Shown here: one piece after another, positions 1-15,684 of the stretch
How the letters are laid out: every line of letters starts with the position of its first letter
Position numbering within the stretch: position 1 is the first letter of the stretch
Source: a virus
IMG/VR virus record: IMGVR_UViG_3300017917_002247
Span: 1-20,758 of that record
DNA length: 20,758 bases
Reading direction: 5' to 3' (one strand)
Made by a program: the position numbers and the translations under genes
The notes under the pieces: model-generated
Seen by the model: only the letters and a program-made list of their open reading frames with translations
Databases searched by the model: none
Told to the model about the DNA's origin: nothing

Positions 1-3000
1 AAATGCATTAGTAAAGGTAATTAATGTAGGTGAGAATGGGTCTATATGCTGCCAATTAGCAGTTCCCGGTGCAGTTGTTGTACCTGTAACACTTTTACAT
101 ACATAAAATGCATAAGTTGATCCTGTTTTATATTGTACAAAATCACCCGCCAAATATGTTACAGTACCTCCAGAAATATAGTTTATAGGTTTATTATAAA
201 TATATCTATAAACTCTAGTACCATCAGTTACGATATCACCATAATTAAACTGTGTGAAATCTGTACTTGATCCCGTATAAGTAGTTATAGGCCCATAAGT
301 GTATGGTTCAATATTAGAATAGGTTATATCTTTATATCTCCATTTCTCATACCCCCAAGGTGTGAATAATTTAGGATCATATTCTGTTATTTCAACAAAA
401 CATGAGTGACCGGCATTAGGATGATAAATGTCTCTAATGTTTTTTGGTAATATATCATTTAAATCACAATGGAAGATTGTGGTTTCCTCAATACAAACAA
501 ATAATCTATAAATATCTACTGTTTCTATTGTATAACCAGTTGAAGTCAAAACAGGTTTTTTATAACTATTAATCTTGTATTTAACAATATCATTTAATTG
601 ATAGTTAATAATCTTAGGATTAAATTCTTCCGCAAATTCAAGTAATTGTAAATATTCTTCACTAGAATAAATCGGGTCTTCTAATAAATAAGTTAAGTTA
701 TTAACAGTATAATTTTTATCTTTAAACTCTGTCTCAAAAGGTTTATTAAAATCATACTTATCATAACCCTCAATACCAAATGATGTACCATCAATATTTA
801 TTGAACCAGTAGAACCAGTTGATACAGGTGATTTACTACCATTTATATGTGATCTATTAGGTGCATACGGTATGGTTTTACTATATACACTATCTCTTTT
901 AATCTGTTTTTTACCAATACTGATATTAAATGATGGTGAAGCAAATTCATAAGCTGTAGGTGTATTACCTAAATACCAATCAGTTAATGTTATATCTTTT
1001 GTTACTGTTATACCATATTCACCTGCTAAGTTATCACTATTTTCTTTACGTTCAATAGGTAACTTTCTGGTCTTAGCCTTAAATGTAAAATCTATTTTAT
1101 CATAGTTTATTGTTTTATCATATACTAATGATGATATGTTTAAAATATCTTCTGTGTCTCTATATTTCTTATAATAATCAGAGTATAGTTTATTGAACAA
1201 TAAATCAGGGTCGGTATTACCAACTACCTTTGGTTTAACTATATCAAAATAAGATTGACTTTGCCCTTGTGTTGCTATTTTATAAACGTCTTTATCAGCA
1301 ATATTAATTGTTGTTTGATTAATAATATCTTCTTTACCTAATAAAGGTTGAATAGATAATATTTTTTCAAATATGCTATTATTATTTATTAACCTACCAG
1401 CATTAAATAATAATCTAAACCTACCATCATTTATAGGGTTATATTCACCATAAGATACCTCTGAATGAGTATAATCTATTTCTTCATATCTTTTTAATTT
1501 ACAAGGAAAATCTACAGGTTGGATAGCAAGATACACTCTATCATTTTGTCTAAAAAATCCTTCATAAACAAAATTATATATTCTATCATCGGCTAAAGAG
1601 CCTCCAATAAATGTGAATTCTTGTTGATTATAAATTAGTCCATTTTGGTCTACTAACTTAACAATAACAGTTTGTCTATTATTTCTTATTAAATCTGTAT
1701 CAAAATATAAATTAATATCAAACTTATAAAAACCAATATCTTTTATCAAATAATAAGGGTTATTGGATTTAACTAAAGAAACATCTTCAAGAGTATCAGC
1801 AAAACCTTCATTAATTGAAGTGATTGATACAAAGTTATCGATATTAGGTACTAAATCTAATTCATCAGTTAAAGTATGGATTAAACTAGTATCATTAAGA
1901 TTATAAAATGGCCCTATATTATCTGAATTTATTGGGTATAAACCATCAAATTCAGCAATAAGCTTATTATCAATAAACAACTTATCACCAACATATATAT
2001 CATCAACTTTGTATGTTGTATCAATTGTTAATCCACTAAAAATTTGATAAGTATCAATTACCTTTGATAGATTAATTGATAATGTATCATTCATCGGGTT
2101 AAGATTATGCTTATTGATATAAGCATAATCTATATGCATTAAAGGGTCAGTTTTGGCTCTTTTTGAATATTTGTATGCCAAACCATTTCTATAAGGTGTT
2201 AACGTTGATCCAGTAGGTGTAGATGCAGTACCTATAGCAGTTGTTCCTGTTATTTCATAAAAATTACCACTATAGCTAACAACATCACCTTGATAATAAG
2301 TAACACCATTAGACCATGCTTTACTTCTTCTATAAGGCACTAACCAATTACCATCTTTTAGATATTCTCCATCTAATGGTTTAGTTGTTCCAGTATATAA
2401 ACTATAACCATAGTAATAAGGTTGTTTAATAACCCTATCTGTATTTGTATTGTCGGTATAATACGCAACATCTGGTATTGTATATTGGGTATCTGCTGAT
2501 GTATATGCTCCCGGTTCTAAATCTATTACACTACCTGCAATATCAAAATAACATGTATGTGCTTTAGGTGGTGGGCAATCAAAATTAAACCCTAATTCAA
2601 TATAAGCTAATGCTTTTGATATTGAATTTATAAAAAACTCTCTTTCAATATTTGTGGGATTAGGACAGTCAGCAAATGTTATAGTATGTGAGTTAGCATT
2701 TTTTGGTATAATATCAAATGCTGGTCTATCATAATCAACTGTAATACCAGTAACACCATTATACTTTTTATATATGGTATAAGTGCCTCCCGGTTTATTG
2801 TATTGTACGTTAATTATAGTTATTTGTGATGTAGTATTTAATTCAGTATTATTAGGTGTTAATAGATTATTATCTTCATCATAAGTATTAACTGTTCTAA
2901 GCCTATACAAATCACCCCTAGCTACAACAAATACACCGTATCTACCACCAACTGATTCTGACGTAAGTCCGGTAGCAACAACTAATGTATTAATATTGCC

Positions 3001-5673
3001 ACCAAAACTGTTTTCTGTATAATCAGTTAAATTATCGTATAAATAATATGATCCTTCCCTTTCGCATTCATCTTTAATGCTGTAATATTTACCTCTATAA
3101 AGATTAACACTATTATCAATACCCTTATTACTTTCTTTTAATTGATTGTAAATTGATAATGGTGTAGACAATGCCTTGGCTGTATTATAAACCCTTCCGC
3201 CATTAATTTCTATACTATTAGTACCCTGATTAATTCTTTTTAAAGCATCATTTGTGAATTCTGACCCTTTATCAATACCGGCTTTATACTTGTATTTATT
3301 ATCAAGTAAATCAGAGTTCTTAACTTTTTTACCAGCATTAAATATAGTTGTTGCAGGTATAACCTGTTTAATAAGTTGAACCCAATATGTATCAAATTGA
3401 TTAATAAAATCAATACCTACACTATTACTAATATCTTTACCATAAGATTTTTTAAAATCATAATACAACTTCCTAAGTGTAGGATAAACAATAAATGTTT
3501 TTCTATTTCTTGGATCAATAAAGTTGTTAAGACAATCTTTAATAAACTGTGAAAAAGTTATATTAGTAGGATTAACACTGTTTGTATATGGTGACCCATA
3601 ATTAGTATCAATAATAAGTCTATTGCGCTTAAAATACCTATAAATTAAGAAATCAATAACTCTTTGTGAATTAAGATAGATTTCAACCTCTTTCGTATTA
3701 ATCAGTAATCTACTATTAAGAACTTCATAAGAAGTATCCGAATCTATATCTTCATTAATAGTAGCAGACTCGGTGTAAACCCAAGACTTCTTATTATCAA
3801 TTGTTTTAACGAGTTCAAAACCTTTTATACCATCAAAGTCTCTAAACTTATCAAGATAAGTTTTACCGTTATCATAAGGACCAACATTTTCTTTATCAAT
3901 AACAATATAACCACCTGCCTCTTGATAAGCTACATCAGTCGGTGCCGATGGGTATCCTTCTGAATCAAATGGATATAAACCAACCAGATTAGCTGGATCA
4001 TCTTCTCCCAAAGCTTCCGCTATCTCTAAATACTTATTATTAGCGTCTAATTTCGCTTCTGTTAAGTAGATATACTCATTAATGTCTATTATATAGTCAG
4101 GTATCCCGACGATCTCTAATAGGGCTTCTATGGCTTTTCTAGTACCTTTACTTTTGAATAGATATGCTGTATTCAACAATAACCTTCTCCATACTTCAAT
4201 ATCAAACTCTTGTGGTGTGATAGTATCTTCCAGAGGTTGACTTATCGTGAATAAACTTGTAATTATAGCATCATCATCATCTAATCTATTTGTATCCCAA
4301 CCTAATGTCTGAGCAAAGTTTTTAATTAACAAATCAGGGACATTATCTATTTTATCATAACTTACATTTCTCATGTAAGCAAGTGAATCAACATACACTT
4401 TAACAGCATCAAATCCTCTACCATATAACTGTAAAACATTTTCCATTTTACGATCTACGGTATCAAACTCTTTAAAGGCCTCAGTTGTTAATGTTCTACT
4501 AATTAAATCACTTTTAAAACTATCAAATGATTCAGCGATTGAATTTAATTCTAATACATATTCATCATATTTTGTTGTAAACACATCTAAATTATAATCA
4601 TCATATAACGGGAAATATAATACCACAGGTTGTATTACGGACTTACCAGTATCATCTGATACCGGCACATTAATTTTTGTCGCATATACTTTGTTTTGAT
4701 TATCAAAGTTTAGTAAAAATTTAGCGACATCGCTTAATTCTTCATAAAACTTATTAACTATAGTTTTATTTGGTTTTAAATAAAATTTGGTGTTAACATT
4801 ATTATTATCATCTTTTACATCTGCAAATGGAAAACCATTAACAGTTACTGACAAATTTGTTCCTGCTGCTCTCAATACTACATCAATGATATCGAATTCT
4901 TGATCATTAAAGAAAACAGTATAATCAGTATAATATTTTGAAAAGTTTCTAATGACAGCACGATCATCGTAATCATTTAAAGTCGTACCAGTACTGTTAT
5001 ATTCAATATTAAAAGGGTTTCTTATCGCACTTGAGTTAATTGTAATAGTAGACGTGTTGTTATTCTTATTTTCAATATAAGAAACAACGTTACGAATGTT
5101 TTGACCCAAATATTCTACTTTAATTGCAGCCGGGAAGTTAGAAATAATTTCTACCAACCCATTCTTAATTCTCTCCTTTAATGAAGAAAACAATACAAAT
5201 CTACTGACATTACTAGTGTCGACATTAAATTTAGGTTTTAGTTTGTTTTCAACATAATTAGATAAATTATTTGGTTGAACACCTAATGTATTAGAGATAC
5301 TTTCTTGTGTATAAGATACCGGTGCGTTTGTTTCTCCAGATATATTTGTCTGGATTACACTAATATCTTTAACAATACTAAAATTACCGAGGGTTAGGAA
5401 TGGGTCACCGCCAAATTCATTATTATTGGCAAATTGCATACCAACTAATCCGCCACCAAAGGTATCATTACCACTAGCTAAATTACCCCCCTTTGTTATT
5501 ACAGTTCTAGTGACTTTTTCGTATTCAGCAAAAGTGAAACATGGTACATAACATAATATACCATCTACATTATACTCTCTAAAACCATCTGATCCTAATT
5601 CTCTTGCTTTGTTTATTGCTTCTTCTTTAGTTGAATATACAAAACGTAGTATAGGTGAATTAATTACTGCCAT
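1..5673 (-). CDS. Giant tail/baseplate protein with P2 gpI-like segment and CBM-like modules (3' end outside window)
   Basis: The frame from ATG at 5673 stays open to position 1, giving 1891 codons with no stop. I translated several stretches directly, including the start, 4084-4260, 2221-2400 and 1-300. The N terminus is MAVINSPILRFVYSTKEEAI. At about 486-525, QEFDIEVWRRLLLNTAYLF followed by KSKGTRKAIEALLEIVGIP matches the signature of phage tail protein I (P2 gpI), a wedge protein related in position to T4 gp7. After about residue 1100 come short aromatic modules resembling CBM5/12: W1120 to Y1139, about 1810-1827 and about 1838-1878. This suggests a protein anchored in the baseplate with distal carbohydrate-binding parts. 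Codon use and AT content match the rest of the operon. The start lies 5 nt after the previous stop (TAATAAAAATG). Adhesin or fibre roles are alternatives; the C terminus is unseen. Confidence 0.75.
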   Translation of the reverse strand, partial: MAVINSPILRFVYSTKEEAINKARELGSDGFREYNVDGILCYVPCFTFAEYEKVTRTVITKGGNLASGNDTFGGGLVGMQFANNNEFGGDPFLTLGNFSIVKDISVIQTNISGETNAPVSYTQESISNTLGVQPNNLSNYVENKLKPKFNVDTSNVSRFVLFSSLKERIKNGLVEIISNFPAAIKVEYLGQNIRNVVSYIENKNNNTSTITINSSAIRNPFNIEYNSTGTTLNDYDDRAVIRNFSKYYTDYTVFFNDQEFDIIDVVLRAAGTNLSVTVNGFPFADVKDDNNNVNTKFYLKPNKTIVNKFYEELSDVAKFLLNFDNQNKVYATKINVPVSDDTGKSVIQPVVLYFPLYDDYNLDVFTTKYDEYVLELNSIAESFDSFKSDLISRTLTTEAFKEFDTVDRKMENVLQLYGRGFDAVKVYVDSLAYMRNVSYDKIDNVPDLLIKNFAQTLGWDTNRLDDDDAIITSLFTISQPLEDTITPQEFDIEVWRRLLLNTAYLFKSKGTRKAIEALLEIVGIPDYIIDINEYIYLTEAKLDANNKYLEIAEALGEDDPANLVGLYPFDSEGYPSAPTDVAYQEAGGYIVIDKENVGPYDNGKTYLDKFRDFDGIKGFELVKTIDNKKSWVYTESATINEDIDSDTSYEVLNSRLLINTKEVEIYLNSQRVIDFLIYRYFKRNRLIIDTNYGSPYTNSVNPTNITFSQFIKDCLNNFIDPRNRKTFIVYPTLRKLYYDFKKSYGKDISNSVGIDFINQFDTYWVQLIKQVIPATTIFNAGKKVKNSDLLDNKYKYKAGIDKGSEFTNDALKRINQGTNSIEINGGRVYNTAKALSTPLSIYNQLKESNKGIDNSVNLYRGKYYSIKDECEREGSYYLYDNLTDYTENSFGGNINTLVVATGLTSESVGGRYGVFVVARGDLYRLRTVNTYDEDNNLLTPNNTELNTTSQITIINVQYNKPGGTYTIYKKYNGVTGITVDYDRPAFDIIPKNANSHTITFADCPNPTNIEREFFINSISKALAYIELGFNFDCPPPKAHTCYFDIAGSVIDLEPGAYTSADTQYTIPDVAYYTDNTNTDRVIKQPYYYGYSLYTGTTKPLDGEYLKDGNWLVPYRRSKAWSNGVTYYQGDVVSYSGNFYEITGTTAIGTASTPTGSTLTPYRNGLAYKYSKRAKTDPLMHIDYAYINKHNLNPMNDTLSINLSKVIDTYQIFSGLTIDTTYKVDDIYVGDKLFIDNKLIAEFDGLYPINSDNIGPFYNLNDTSLIHTLTDELDLVPNIDNFVSITSINEGFADTLEDVSLVKSNNPYYLIKDIGFYKFDINLYFDTDLIRNNRQTVIVKLVDQNGLIYNQQEFTFIGGSLADDRIYNFVYEGFFRQNDRVYLAIQPVDFPCKLKRYEEIDYTHSEVSYGEYNPINDGRFRLLFNAGRLINNNSIFEKILSIQPLLGKEDIINQTTINIADKDVYKIATQGQSQSYFDIVKPKVVGNTDPDLLFNKLYSDYYKKYRDTEDILNISSLVYDKTINYDKIDFTFKAKTRKLPIERKENSDNLAGEYGITVTKDITLTDWYLGNTPTAYEFASPSFNISIGKKQIKRDSVYSKTIPYAPNRSHINGSKSPVSTGSTGSINIDGTSFGIEGYDKYDFNKPFETEFKDKNYTVNNLTYLLEDPIYSSEEYLQLLEFAEEFNPKIINYQLNDIVKYKINSYKKPVLTSTGYTIETVDIYRLFVCIEETTIFHCDLNDILPKNIRDIYHPNAGHSCFVEITEYDPKLFTPWGYEKWRYKDITYSNIEPYTYGPITTYTGSSTDFTQFNYGDIVTDGTRVYRYIYNKPINYISGGTVTYLAGDFVQYKTGSTYAFYVCKSVTGTTTAPGTANWQHIDPFSPTLITFTNAF
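40..246 (-). repeat. Two adjacent CBM5/12-like modules near the window edge
   Basis: Residues about 1810-1827 (NYGDIVTDGTRVYRYI) and about 1838-1878 (TYLAGDFVQYKTGSTYAFYV, then TAPGTANWQHI) share the Y-GD-V-G-Y pattern. The second ends in the family-typical P-W pair. A third, looser YQLNDIVKYK lies near residue 1691 (about 603). Together with the module at 1120 they form a degenerate series, which may continue past position 1. Confidence 0.5.
2179..2319 (-). other. CBM5/12-like module in the giant protein
   Basis: Residues about 1119-1165 contain AWSNGVTYYQGDVVSYSGNF followed by YEITG, with the W-Y-GD-V-Y-G-Y spacing of chitin-type CBM5/12 modules. A Thr/Ser/Gly linker rich in GTAST follows. 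The module may bind a host surface glycan; ligand identity cannot be read from the sequence. Confidence 0.5.
4099..4218 (-). other. P2 gpI-like (phage tail protein I) segment inside the giant protein
   Basis: These codons give residues 486-525 of the giant protein. The helical pattern V-RRLLLN-AYLFKSKGTRKAIEALLEIVG matches the most conserved part of tail protein I, where a Lys/Arg-Gly-Thr turn links two helices. The match was read by eye and not scored. Only this core is clear; the flanking sequence diverges. Confidence 0.6.
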
Positions 5674-9765: not shown

Positions 9766-11258
9766 TTTAATCGTTTATATTCACTAAAGTTATCATCAGT
9801 AAACAGTCCTGTATTATCAAATAAACCATTTATATAATCTCTAAAATTAAATATGTATGATTGATTTGTTCTTGTAGGAACATTCCTGACATTAACTAAG
9901 TCATTATCATCATTAGTATTTAATTTAGTGTATTTTTTCTCTGCATTTACAATAAATCTTATATCATTGTAAACATATAGAGCATTATTAATAAATGGGT
10001 AATCTACATTAGCTGCCGTTAATGGATCTACGTAAGCATAATCTTTAACATCTCTCCATATATATCTACCATTATTAAGTAATGTTGCATAATATGGTGT
10101 TAGTTCCTGATTACTAGTGGTCTGCAATTCACCCAATAATCTAAGTTGTTTTATGTAAAATGGGTTATAATGATATAATACATCACCCAACATAAAACAG
10201 TGTTTTAAAGTGGTAAGTTCAGTTTCAACTTGTTCTAGTACAGACCAAGAACATATTGAATGTATATATTTCTGACCTATATATACACCATTAGTATTTT
10301 CTATATAATCACTACTAGTACTTTCAATAAACTCACTTAAATTAGATTTTATGCCGCCATTATACATGATACCAATAACAATATTTGTTATCGGATAACC
10401 TTTATGATTCAATAAGTTCTCAATATTAGTATCTATATCATTAACAAAATTGTAAATGTCTGAATTGAAACAATTTTTACTAAATGAGCATACATCATAA
10501 TCAGGGATTATATCTATAACTTCTAATTGTTTAAAATAATACTGTATTAACTCACCATTTTTAACTTTTCTGAAATTTAGATCTGGTTTAAGTAGTTTAA
10601 CAACATTTGGTCTATCTTCATATAATGCAGATAATTCACTATTCTTAAAACCGACATTACCTATCAATGTATCTGTAACCGTATAACCTGTTACGCTTTG
10701 TATAGCAGGTCTTGTATCTCTTAAATACACAATACCATTTGTATATTCATCAACCACATATAATCCAGATGATATTTCACTATTTGTTGTATTTGTCACA
10801 TAAAGCGTATCACCAAATTCAACATCACATTCAAATAAGGGTTTAAAACATAACCTATTAGGTATATCTATATTTAACTCATACGCAATCTTTGCTGGAA
10901 TACCCTTCCTTAAATCAAATTCATTATTCGCTGTTTTTACATAAAGTTCTTCACCTGTTTCAACCAATACAACAATCGACCAATTATCTTTATTAAAAGA
11001 TAATTTAGTTTTATCAATATTGATAGATGAATATATGTTATTATTAAGTAAAATAACCGGGTTTGTATTAATTATAGGATCAACTTTACCATATAATCTA
11101 AGATTATTAGTGGCATTTTTTTCTAACTGATATTGTTGAATACCAGATATAGTGTAATAGTATTTGTCATCCACCATTCTTTTTTCTGCCGATTCAACAG
11201 TTAATGGTAGAGATATATCACTTTTAATACCTATTGTTTTATCTAATCTCTCTTTCAT
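9759..11258 (-). CDS. Putative tail/baseplate structural protein, unknown family
   Basis: At 499 residues, with no recognised domain. The sequence is mostly beta-prone and Asn/Tyr-rich, without signal peptide, membrane helix or obvious repeats. A middle part (about 235-330) mixes helices and a NIVIGIMYNGGIKSNLSEF segment, followed by an aromatic stretch (GRYIWRDVKDYAYVDPLT, then DYPFINNALYVYNDI). Seven Cys residues are scattered without a metal-binding spacing. The start ATG overlaps the previous stop by one base and its end overlaps the next start by 7 nt, so it is fixed in the operon by coupling. Its surroundings make a virion function likely; a more precise role cannot be read from the sequence. 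Confidence 0.55.
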   Translation of the reverse strand: MKERLDKTIGIKSDISLPLTVESAEKRMVDDKYYYTISGIQQYQLEKNATNNLRLYGKVDPIINTNPVILLNNNIYSSINIDKTKLSFNKDNWSIVVLVETGEELYVKTANNEFDLRKGIPAKIAYELNIDIPNRLCFKPLFECDVEFGDTLYVTNTTNSEISSGLYVVDEYTNGIVYLRDTRPAIQSVTGYTVTDTLIGNVGFKNSELSALYEDRPNVVKLLKPDLNFRKVKNGELIQYYFKQLEVIDIIPDYDVCSFSKNCFNSDIYNFVNDIDTNIENLLNHKGYPITNIVIGIMYNGGIKSNLSEFIESTSSDYIENTNGVYIGQKYIHSICSWSVLEQVETELTTLKHCFMLGDVLYHYNPFYIKQLRLLGELQTTSNQELTPYYATLLNNGRYIWRDVKDYAYVDPLTAANVDYPFINNALYVYNDIRFIVNAEKKYTKLNTNDDNDLVNVRNVPTRTNQSYIFNFRDYINGLFDNTGLFTDDNFSEYKRLKC

Positions 11259-13474
11259 TATTTAAAGTAGATGTTTTCTATGTCTATTAGTGAATTTGCC
11301 CCATCCCACATACCAAAATAATAGTATTTGCCATTATACATATTATTTTGTTTACCATAAGATGAATAGACAGTATTTGCAATTAGATCAGGTAAATCAT
11401 TTGTAATATCCACAATTTCTATTTCTAATGCAGTTTTATAATTTCTAAAATCACAACAATTAACAAATAATCCAACTGTTACGGTATCATTAAGTGCTTT
11501 ATTATACGGTGGATGTACATTAAAAGAATTAGCTTCACTATTTTTACTTTTAGCCAAATCTCTTGAATATGGTGTACCCCTATAAACAACACTACCTGAA
11601 TTATCTCCAAAATTAACAGTATCTAATTGGCCATATATATCAAGATTATTAGAAGTAAAATCATTACTGTTAAATAATTCTTCAAATACTGGACCTATGT
11701 TTTTACCAATTGTATCAAGATTAACAAACGTTGAACTTCCACCAACATCGGTACCAATGCCATAAATTATTTCCTCTATAACACCAAGATATTTTAATCT
11801 ATTAACATCAACAATATTATCAATTACTATTGAAAAATTTTTAACAATAAAAAATGATATAGTATCTCTATATAAACTATTAACAGAAATTCTAGGTAAA
11901 AAACATGAACCTATTACTTCTGTATCTCCAGTTATATTACTTATAGGATGTTGCCAAAATACTTTATCAGATTTATTGGTATCAATTTTTGGTATATATG
12001 GAATATTTAACCCGTTCTGATTTATAGTATTACCATGCGATTTATATAAAGTTTTTATCGTATAAAACTTACGTCTATTATTTAATATATCATATTCAAA
12101 ATTACCCCAATAAGTACCTAACCAACCGCCTATGTTAGGGTCTCCTTCATTGTTGGCAGGTATTCTAACACCAGATAATACTTGATGTTTAAATCCTCCC
12201 CAAGGTCTTCTGGTACCGTAATTAATCTTATCCGCCTCGTAAAACTCAAAACAATATGAACCTTTAGTTGGTACACCCAATGTTTTATTTTCAGTAGGTA
12301 TTTTATCACCGTATTCATTAGTCATGTAATAATCACTATACATTGGTAAATTAATCTTGAATACTCCACTAGATTTTGGAAATCTATATGTACCAATTCT
12401 TTTTCTTGTACCAACAGTATTAGTATCATCCATTTTATAAATCACCACTTCTAATTCCTGAACAGGATAAAACCCACCGGCTATTCTACCATCTTTAGTT
12501 TCACCATAAACACTATTTGCTTCTATAACAGAATTTTCGTCCAATCCTGAGTCGTTATTAATGGTAAAATATGAGCCGTCAAAATTGTAACCTATGTATT
12601 CAGGGGATGATCCTATAAAACCAAAAAATGTTGCAGTTGGAATAAAAGTATAATCAATAGTAAAATTACATTCAGTAATACCTACGTTATTATTATCACC
12701 CCAAAAAGGTAAGACATTTAATTGTTTAACCTCAGTGAAAATATTTGGCATCTTATCAATATCAACATTAACCTGCACTTCATAATCACCATTACCAGTA
12801 TAAATAAATCCCGGTATATTTGATACATCATCTAATGTTGAACCAGATATATTTGCAGATATAAAAGACTTTATTGAATTTATTGTCTCTCCACCAGATA
12901 ACTGATTAGCTAAATCACTTGCATTAATATTGAAACTATTTGTATCAAACAAATCAAAATCCATTCTAACTTGATGTGGGCCAACCGGTACGCCAAATAT
13001 CATATAATCACCATTTTCGTTTGTCGTTGCAGTGAATTTATAATACTTGTTATATACTTCCTCTAATATAGGATAATTAACAAAATCATTCACATCTGGA
13101 AAGCTTCCTACAGCTCTATGTGATGCGTTTTTAGCGTTCCTAACCCTTGGTAGTAGATTATGTCTCAAACCATTAGGGAAAGCGTCTGTAGGGCTTGTAA
13201 ATGGGTAATATTTGATAATATCATTCCTTAACAAATCATCAGTTGTTATAGGTATAAAAACACTAACTTTTGCATTTTGTACACCAACTCCATTTTTTAG
13301 TTTTATACTACCGGCAATTACACCTTCATTAGAAGATACTCGATTATAAACATCATCAGATGATACAACTAAAGATAAGACTTTGAGTTCATCAAAGTCT
13401 TGTTCTAAATTTAAACTAATGACATTATCAGTATTTAAATCATCTACCTTTAATACGATATTTTCTATGTCCAT
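11258..13474 (-). CDS. Putative baseplate/tail protein with carboxypeptidase-regulatory-like domain
   Basis: A 738-residue soluble protein that I cannot name. Near the N terminus a beta-sandwich of the carboxypeptidase-regulatory/transthyretin-like type is visible in two halves. IAGSIKLKNGVGVQNAKVSVFIP (53-75) opens it and TTNENGDYMIFGVPVGPHQV (150-169) closes it, matching the G-V-G-A-V and D-G-Y-G-PG-Y patterns of that fold. The intervening 70 residues (PTDAFPNGLRHNLLPRVRNA and onward) are an insertion. The remainder is rich in Tyr, Asn, Gly and aromatic residues, as in virion proteins. Its place directly after the gp6-like gene suggests a wedge or peripheral baseplate role, perhaps replacing T4 gp7 or gp8; that is positional inference. 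Its TAA overlaps the next ATG by one base. No catalytic motif was seen. Confidence 0.65.
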   Translation of the reverse strand: MDIENIVLKVDDLNTDNVISLNLEQDFDELKVLSLVVSSDDVYNRVSSNEGVIAGSIKLKNGVGVQNAKVSVFIPITTDDLLRNDIIKYYPFTSPTDAFPNGLRHNLLPRVRNAKNASHRAVGSFPDVNDFVNYPILEEVYNKYYKFTATTNENGDYMIFGVPVGPHQVRMDFDLFDTNSFNINASDLANQLSGGETINSIKSFISANISGSTLDDVSNIPGFIYTGNGDYEVQVNVDIDKMPNIFTEVKQLNVLPFWGDNNNVGITECNFTIDYTFIPTATFFGFIGSSPEYIGYNFDGSYFTINNDSGLDENSVIEANSVYGETKDGRIAGGFYPVQELEVVIYKMDDTNTVGTRKRIGTYRFPKSSGVFKINLPMYSDYYMTNEYGDKIPTENKTLGVPTKGSYCFEFYEADKINYGTRRPWGGFKHQVLSGVRIPANNEGDPNIGGWLGTYWGNFEYDILNNRRKFYTIKTLYKSHGNTINQNGLNIPYIPKIDTNKSDKVFWQHPISNITGDTEVIGSCFLPRISVNSLYRDTISFFIVKNFSIVIDNIVDVNRLKYLGVIEEIIYGIGTDVGGSSTFVNLDTIGKNIGPVFEELFNSNDFTSNNLDIYGQLDTVNFGDNSGSVVYRGTPYSRDLAKSKNSEANSFNVHPPYNKALNDTVTVGLFVNCCDFRNYKTALEIEIVDITNDLPDLIANTVYSSYGKQNNMYNGKYYYFGMWDGANSLIDIENIYFK

Positions 13475-13475
13475 A

Positions 13476-15299
13476 TTAGATTAAGTTATTACTAAGAGTA
13501 GTTGTTCTAACAACAATATCTCTTTGTGGGTATCTAATTTGTAATATCTGATTAGATTCACATTTCAAAATATTATTGCTAGTATTTATTTCTCTTGTGG
13601 TAGTATTATTTAAAGGTTGATTTATCGTGTTGCTGCTATATTGACCACCAACTTTATTGAACACTTTAATATAGTTTATGTTCTGTACTGTGTCAATATT
13701 TGATATAAGTCTAATCAACTTACCTAAGTTATATGATCTACCTGTATCAATTTTTGAATTTTCAAACTCACTGTTGATAAGATCAATGATTCTATTGCTA
13801 GTTTCTATTTGAGTTGTATTATCAATCAATACACTCACTTCAAATCCTAAATCAATTACTTGTCCGGGTTTAATAAGTATGTAATCATTTAACATTCTAT
13901 AATTTGATAAATATGCTCCCACATTTTCCATTACAGTAGATGTTACTTGATTGGAAATTTTGCCCTCATTATCATAAGATAGTAAATTGACTTCTATTTT
14001 ATTGTTTACTTGTCTTACACCTACTTTAGCTGGGGCACCAAAATCTTTTGGTAATGAAACCAATAACGCTTTATAATCATTTAATGTGACTGCTCTTTTT
14101 TGAGATGCAAAGTTATATGCAATCATATTTCTTAATTCTTCAATATCTAACTCTTCGCCCCCACCAACTGCTGGAGTTACGTTTGTAACACTTAAAGAAC
14201 CTTCAACAACGGCGTTTGTTCTAACATCACTACCATTTATTTCAATATATTTTGTACCAAATGAATTAATAACATTAACACCTACATTACTATTACTGCC
14301 ACCGCCTATTCTATACCTAATGTACATTGTGTGATTTTTAAACGGTGCTTCACCTAAACTACTATTATTCAATAACGACTGTAAATCAAATGTTCCACCA
14401 TCAACAAAATCGTCAAGAATATCAAACCCTGAATTTGTTTGATTACCAAATGTTATTTTGCATTGATTATTTGGTAAATATTTTTTGATATAACGTTTAG
14501 TTGTATCTAACCACTTACCTGCTGGAATGCCATTACTGTCAACAGCTTTACTTCTATCTCTAACAAAAACACTTTTTTGTGCTAAGGCATCAACTTCATA
14601 CCACAAATAATCCTCATTTGAAAAGTCGTTAATAGATGGTTGAGATGATAAGTTTGTGCCGGGCTTCATTATTACGCTTTGTACAGATAATACGTTATCA
14701 TCTGGTAAAATAAGAGAATAAAACGGTTTAACATCTGCATTACCAAAAACCTGTGTAAATACTTTACTAATACCGGCTATTACTATACCCGTTTTAGTTA
14801 ATCTATATGCCACAATAATCCCGTTTGATGTAATAGGAGTTTTTGTTCTATCTAATACACCTGATATATTGAATGGTGAAGAAAAATCAACATCATATAA
14901 TAATTCATAACTATTATTACCACCTAATACCTGAGTACCTGCTTTAAGTATTGGCATATACGAAGGGTCAGCATCGTCACCAAATGCTGGTACTTGAACT
15001 GTAAACTGACATATAGCAATGCTTGCTGATTTATTTGGTAAGCTTAACCCATAAGTTTCGGCTAATCTATATAATGATTCCCTTTTTTGAGCAGTATATA
15101 AAAATACCTCATTAACGGATCTATCAATACCATGATTTAAAGTATCAGCAATACCAGCATTTAAATCAGCTAACACTGACATTATTGATCCATCATTGAA
15201 ATTATTAATTAGATCTGGATAATAATTTTTTATGTAATTATACTGTTCTTCTTTAAGTGATTTAAAATCCCTAACAGCATAAGATAATGTTCTTGCCAT
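13476..15299 (-). CDS. Baseplate wedge protein, T4 gp6 / P2 gpJ (Baseplate_J) family
   Basis: This 607-residue protein forms the inner ring of the baseplate wedge in contractile tails. The N-terminal helical part (about 1-90) has the family look, with DGSIMSVLADLNAGIADTL and later QKRESLYRLAETYGL. A mid-region KITFGNQTNSGFDILDD (about 281-297) and YRIGGGSNSNVGVN (about 329-342) resemble the FG-G and GGG-S-NV signatures of T4 gp6 and related proteins. GGGEELDIEELRNMI (379-393) followed by KRAVTLNDYKALL (401-413) is the most diagnostic stretch of the Baseplate_J domain. The size is close to T4 gp6. It starts one base after the gp25-like stop and is followed one base after its own stop by the 738-residue gene, so translation is probably coupled. 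The C-terminal 120 residues look like a mixed alpha/beta dimerisation region. Confidence 0.88.
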   Translation of the reverse strand: MARTLSYAVRDFKSLKEEQYNYIKNYYPDLINNFNDGSIMSVLADLNAGIADTLNHGIDRSVNEVFLYTAQKRESLYRLAETYGLSLPNKSASIAICQFTVQVPAFGDDADPSYMPILKAGTQVLGGNNSYELLYDVDFSSPFNISGVLDRTKTPITSNGIIVAYRLTKTGIVIAGISKVFTQVFGNADVKPFYSLILPDDNVLSVQSVIMKPGTNLSSQPSINDFSNEDYLWYEVDALAQKSVFVRDRSKAVDSNGIPAGKWLDTTKRYIKKYLPNNQCKITFGNQTNSGFDILDDFVDGGTFDLQSLLNNSSLGEAPFKNHTMYIRYRIGGGSNSNVGVNVINSFGTKYIEINGSDVRTNAVVEGSLSVTNVTPAVGGGEELDIEELRNMIAYNFASQKRAVTLNDYKALLVSLPKDFGAPAKVGVRQVNNKIEVNLLSYDNEGKISNQVTSTVMENVGAYLSNYRMLNDYILIKPGQVIDLGFEVSVLIDNTTQIETSNRIIDLINSEFENSKIDTGRSYNLGKLIRLISNIDTVQNINYIKVFNKVGGQYSSNTINQPLNNTTTREINTSNNILKCESNQILQIRYPQRDIVVRTTTLSNNLI

Positions 15300-15300
15300 T

Positions 15301-15684
15301 TTATAGTTCTATTGTTATATTGTCGTTATATTCAAATGTATTATCTGTGAATAGATAATTTATTGATACTATTAATGTGCTCCTATTTTCATCCCTCTCG
15401 TAATTAACACCTTTAATTTTAACATTAGGGATATAATTTTCAACATCATATATCTCTTGAGTAACTTCCTGCCTCATAACCTCATCATTTTGATCAAATA
15501 ATAGATATTTAAGCCTAGTACCAAATTCTGGATACATATATCTTGATCCCTTATCTGTCATAAAATAATGTATAAGCATAGTTTTAGTTTCCTCAATCGG
15601 AGAGGTTGTCAATTTAAAATAATCACCATTTTGTGAATCCTCAAATGGGAATGATATGCCGTATGTAGTTTTTCTAACACTCAT
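15301..15684 (-). CDS. Baseplate wedge protein, gp25/GPW family
   Basis: This 127-residue protein belongs to the gp25/P2 gpW/TssE-type wedge family of contractile tails, which links the baseplate wedge to the sheath. The family core is visible: a helix with the M-L-I-HYF-T-KGSR pattern, then YPEFGTRLKYLLFD (about 51-64), an alternating helix (EVMRQEVTQEIYDVE), and a C-terminal beta hairpin ending NITIEL. Length is typical of the family. The usual Glu-Pro-Arg motif appears to be replaced by ENY at about 82-84, before IPNVKI. It is the first gene of the tail operon. The gp6-like gene starts one base after its stop, the same order as T4 25 and 6. It has no signal peptide or membrane segment. Confidence 0.88.
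   Translation of the reverse strand: MSVRKTTYGISFPFEDSQNGDYFKLTTSPIEETKTMLIHYFMTDKGSRYMYPEFGTRLKYLLFDQNDEVMRQEVTQEIYDVENYIPNVKIKGVNYERDENRSTLIVSINYLFTDNTFEYNDNITIEL

Follow-up and report, generated by a model that had tools for sequence, protein, structure and literature searches.

The (gp6)2-gp7 unit is a conserved scaffold of the baseplate wedge and carries a gp25-type protein on its core bundle (PMC10457771). In XM1 the tail spikes are bound by the gp7-type subunit, and gp17, described as the ortholog of T4 gp7, is only 242 aa long (PMC10457771). Since T4 gp7 itself has 1,032 aa, the size of proteins occupying the gp7 role varies widely. Wedge proteins bearing CBM are also already known. 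Gp119 of Vp4, a baseplate wedge 3 protein, possesses CBM folds that are absent from its homologues, and it binds cells (PMC11406892). Alg11 of AlgoCIS is a core-bundle wedge component with an added domain of two CBM folds that forms the cage around the spike, and the authors of that study regard the gp7-like part as a hotspot of re-engineering (PMC8894135). Here, a giant open reading frame (ORF) of a viral contig is compared with these systems.

The giant ORF and its gene neighbourhood

The window, meaning the whole stretch of DNA analysed, is an IMG/VR virus record of 20,758 bases. The giant ORF occupies positions 1..5673 on the minus strand, starts with ATG and encodes at least 1,891 aa, its 3' end being cut at the contig end with no stop before it. 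A 95% identical locus on a contig of 133,874 bases (L002) contains the full-length protein of 2,352 aa.

The ORF belongs to a baseplate cluster. Upstream of it, and transcribed in the same direction, are genes of a gp6-like baseplate wedge protein, its expected partner (13476..15299, minus strand; 607 aa; phrog_6 E 1e-18, phrog_219 E 6.7e-16), and of a gp25-like sheath initiator (15301..15684, minus strand; 127 aa; PF04965 E 4.4e-7, over the cut-off), followed by ribonucleotide reductase subunits and a DnaB-type helicase. The same linkage recurs among relatives, as gp25 was found exactly once in each of the eight larger genomes tested, at coordinates within ~15 kb of the wedge gene. No second PF09684 candidate was detected in the records of the four relatives checked (G001, Microcystis phage Mel-JY01, Flavobacterium phage immuto and LR756508), and those of Mel-JY01 and immuto contained no PF09684 match at all.

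Two further features of this neighbourhood were recorded. In the interval from the giant ORF to the gp6-like gene, positions 11258-13474 of the window encode a 738-aa protein with a PF13620 carboxypeptidase-regulatory-like domain (E 2.7e-4, below the cut-off). On the other side of the ORF, the genes at L002:17129-22561 encode proteins of 907, 392 and 111 aa that apparently share an N-terminal 'LTDKG/LTDLGR'-like motif, at which the first two match each other weakly (E 0.011).

A gpI/gp7-like signature supported at the family level

In a search of one genome, the PF09684 (Tail_P2_I) profile matched residues 494-534 (4072..4194, minus strand), with their K-x-K-G-T motif, with an E value of 0.005, and its scores of 10.8-11.7 bits are below the cut-off of 20.6; PHROG 5726 'tail protein' gave E 0.42. 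The match lies within a predicted helical gpI/gp7-like segment, residues 371-545 (4039..4563, minus strand), that is 99.4% identical to its counterpart in L002. A scan of 65 diverse homologues of this segment with the complete set of 24,736 Pfam models matched Tail_P2_I most often, in 22 homologues against 5 for the runner-up family; because the members are related, these are not 22 independent votes, and no scanned member reached a convincing Tail_P2_I E-value by itself (best 0.015). In four separate lineages, this segment is also where the gpI profile aligned. The signature is thus weak in any single sequence and strong at the level of the family. The gpI signature reported in the initial annotation at about residues 486-525 is accordingly retained, with its position corrected.

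Profile-profile comparisons were judged against decoys. Against a P2-gpI alignment the segment scored 30.7 (E 6e-4 for this one comparison; maximum of 40 column-shuffled decoys 16.9), and against T4 gp7 it reached 22.8, barely above the decoy maximum of 21.4. A second conserved region, the C-terminal anchor of the core (residues 701-800, ..LIKQVIPATTIFNAG..; 3274..3573, minus strand), matched the corresponding anchor of a distant clade with a score of 42.1 (E 3.7e-7; decoy maximum 17.2). Significant comparisons of the core profile required alignments on both sides; against single sequences of T4 gp7, P2 gpI and XacN1 nothing significant was obtained. Whole-protein phmmer and profile searches of PDB sequences returned no match, and a scan of viral contigs with P2 gpI recovered near-identical P2-like copies only. 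The choice between the labels gp7 and gpI is a question of role: the statistics favour gpI, and size and gene context resemble gp7.

AlphaFold2 models of residues 1-830 and 371-545 were of low confidence (mean pLDDT 56.2 and 61.7, respectively) and placed helices across residues 367-521, where they are expected for a gpI/gp7 segment. Foldseek searches with both of these low-confidence models found no significant fold match in the PDB, and among viral models the hits were confined to phage relatives with no name or a loose one.

A conserved core in a large family of hypothetical proteins

Two profile scans of viral contigs identified at least 561 and at least 556 confirmed relatives. By blastp coverage, the part common to the 80 nearest of them spans residues ~60-800, and together with the alignment this delimits a family core at residues 61-800 (3274..5493, minus strand), the sole region that nearly all relatives have in common. 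The full proteins of these near relatives are mostly ~980-1,120 aa long, with a minimum of 712 aa, and complete proteins in a more distant set range from 958 to 2,362 aa. The gpI/gp7-like segment is also conserved in Mel-JY01 (WWT39511), immuto (YP_010114574) and an uncultured 484-kb phage (ORF of LR756508), in each case shortly after gp6-like genes. These three are homologous to the window protein in the core and occupy the same place after gp25/gp6, but they are 1,265-1,400 aa long, as opposed to at least 1,891 in the window, and differ in their inserts and C-termini.

The suggestion that a gpI signature within a large protein is unusual is not supported: T4 gp7, with its 1,032 aa, bears a corresponding KG motif, and hundreds of related contigs encode the segment within proteins of ~1,000-2,400 aa. 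As the core is common to the relatives, gp25 is nearby in the eight genomes tested and no other gpI-like protein was found in the four checked, the wedge part appears to be the standard protein of the family, and what sets the lineage apart is confined to the C-terminal ~1,550 residues. The three phage homologues named above are annotated as hypothetical or lack annotation. The analysis offers a probable identity for a large and widespread phage protein family hitherto annotated only as hypothetical.

Selective constraint follows the same partition. Between the window and L002, dN/dS was lowest in the segment 371-545 (0.011) and the anchor 701-800 (0.009), amounted to 0.03-0.05 in the remaining core after residue 60 and to 0.07 in the whole C-terminal arm, and reached its maximum within the arm, 0.135, around the CBM. 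The sharing pattern across relatives and this contrast in dN/dS together indicate a conserved wedge-type core joined to a lineage-specific arm.

An unannotated ORF of Xanthomonas phage XacN1, ORF325 (L006:18371-28312; 3,313 aa), lies directly after gp6 and has an N-K-G-T motif near residue 2340; it is perhaps another giant wedge-type protein, the profile comparison not being significant.

The C-terminal arm and its CBM5/12-like module

The arm comprises ~1,550 residues, from residue 801 onward (1..3273, minus strand; about 801-2352 in L002), and was delimited by blastp and homologue searches. Up to residue ~1132 it is common to one relative, L093; beyond residue ~1131 it was found in only the window and L002 among the viral contigs and phage records searched. 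Residues 1119-1148 (2230..2319, minus strand) match the CBM5/12-like profile PF02839 with 30.5 bits as an isolated segment, over the cut-off of 26.2, and with 23.2 bits, under it, within the whole protein. The match is partial, covering 30 of the 44 profile positions, with the last third of the profile missing. CBM5/12-like modules had been proposed from residue ~1120 onward. The first of these stands as a Pfam-grade match when isolated, whereas the stretches past residue 1148 recognised by eye in the translation, including a second CBM5/12-like one at residues 1836-1880 (34..168, minus strand), matched no Pfam profile. No significant family match other than the CBM was found in the arm. The module at 1119-1148 would be the best candidate for contact with a cell-surface glycan.

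Apparent additions to the wedge gene in other relatives

The origin of such arms may be illuminated by two relatives with giant wedge-type proteins, L094 (L173:2333-11371; 3,012 aa) and L098 (L174:4460-13429; 2,989 aa). Part of their C-terminal region matches a separate protein of 1,250-1,307 aa (E 4e-51), whose gene immediately follows that of the wedge protein in L099, L101, L105 and L112. In L094 and L098 the wedge gene thus seems to have fused with the next gene, unless a split occurred in the other direction. By analogy, a tail gene next to the wedge gene may have been fused to it and so have given rise to the window arm. The indication of fusion concerns only those other relatives and is an analogy for the window arm, because the latter has no separate homologue: no separate copy was found in viral contigs or phage records, and identity with the downstream gene of other relatives was rejected, as the arm shows no similarity to either the SprB-repeat or the 1,250-aa family found there.

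The SprB-repeat proteins belong to one family, represented at L172:8040-10169 and L128:8193-10340, that directly follows the wedge gene in 62 of the near-relative loci and whose members are mostly 700-1,500 aa long where complete. SprB repeats (PF13573) were detected in the two of these proteins that were scanned (E 3.9e-28 and 1.6e-8). The repeat is named after a gliding adhesin of Flavobacterium, and the post-wedge protein may be a host-like adhesin that the phages employ. A different arrangement occurs in L148 (L175:4081-9635), where ~170 residues near the end of a 1,539-aa wedge-type protein are 37% identical to the 300-aa protein encoded immediately downstream, a pattern like that of a domain duplication.

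Discussion

Family-level homology and gene neighbourhood make it probable that the giant ORF encodes a gp7/gpI-type wedge subunit of a contractile phage tail. The combination of a wedge part and a glycan-binding-like module on one chain, suggested in the initial annotation, is upheld to the extent that the gpI/gp7-type identity is most likely and a CBM5/12-like module is present. The phage would be large, AT-rich and contractile-tailed, its nearest isolates infecting Flavobacterium and Microcystis. The ORF product would serve as the gp7/gpI-type subunit of the (gp6)2-gp7 baseplate wedge, with residues 371-545 and 701-800 binding two gp6-like copies and sitting under gp25. The arm (about 801-2352) would project to the edge of the baseplate and contact the host, its module at 1119-1148 touching a cell-surface glycan.

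These steps differ in strength. That the arm is the host-contacting part is a proposition on which we are about evenly balanced. A broader and rather unlikely extension is that in several lineages a single chain of 2,300-3,000 residues has resulted from a merger of the structural wedge subunit with a baseplate arm that contacts the host, and that glycan contact could in this way act on the (gp6)2-gp7 trigger directly, with no separate fibre. If the arm does bind host glycans, trigger and sensor would be one and the same chain.

Plausible, while falling short of an even chance, is a wedge protein whose arm is architectural, forming either a cage or peripheral scaffold around the spike or a platform for fibres, with a CBM-like fold that is structural and binds no sugar. 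The two-CBM-fold domain of the Alg11 wedge component, which builds the spike cage (PMC8894135), may offer a precedent, and the absence of the last third of the profile from the window match and the overall constraint on the arm (dN/dS 0.07) agree with it; on the other hand, the CBM-bearing wedge protein of Vp4, Gp119, binds cells (PMC11406892), and within the arm it is the CBM region that changes fastest. It is improbable that the protein is not a wedge subunit but an adhesin or tail fibre in which a gpI-like motif occurs by chance. This reading might be argued from single-sequence matches that all remain under curated cut-offs and from the lack of a match in the fold search. Against it, the signature is family-wide (22/65), keeps a constant position before a second conserved segment, ranks with the most strongly constrained regions of the chain and occurs with gp25 nearby in all genomes tested and no other gpI found in four.

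Taking the protein as a wedge subunit, its relation to the known systems can be specified. P2 gpI and PF09684 resemble it in the KGT signature region, in gene neighbourhood and in a profile-profile score above decoys, but P2 gpI has 176 aa, as against more than 2,000 in the window lineage, and the window protein does not reach the PF09684 cut-off. T4 gp7 is a better comparison than the small P2 gpI: its KG motif lies in a helical segment, as is predicted for the window protein, and it is encoded near gp6 and gp25 and falls in the size class of the near relatives, although sequence similarity is at the edge of noise and the window lineage adds ~1,550 C-terminal residues. The C-terminus of the wedge subunit emerges as a site at which large elements peculiar to a lineage are appended; in two relatives this apparently happened when the wedge gene fused with its downstream neighbour.

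Vp4 Gp119 is similar in being a wedge-type protein that bears CBM, and it is itself the cell-binding protein in Vp4; it is a homologue of A511 Gp105, not of gp7/gpI, and its CBM folds are from other families. AlgoCIS Alg11, from an Algoriphagus system, is likewise a wedge component enlarged by a CBM-bearing domain, but it is part of an extracellular injection system, and its added domain forms a spike cage; the likeness considered here is one of architecture. Set beside these systems, the window protein most likely elaborates on a design already known and is not a new kind of machine, ordinary in kind and unusual in size.
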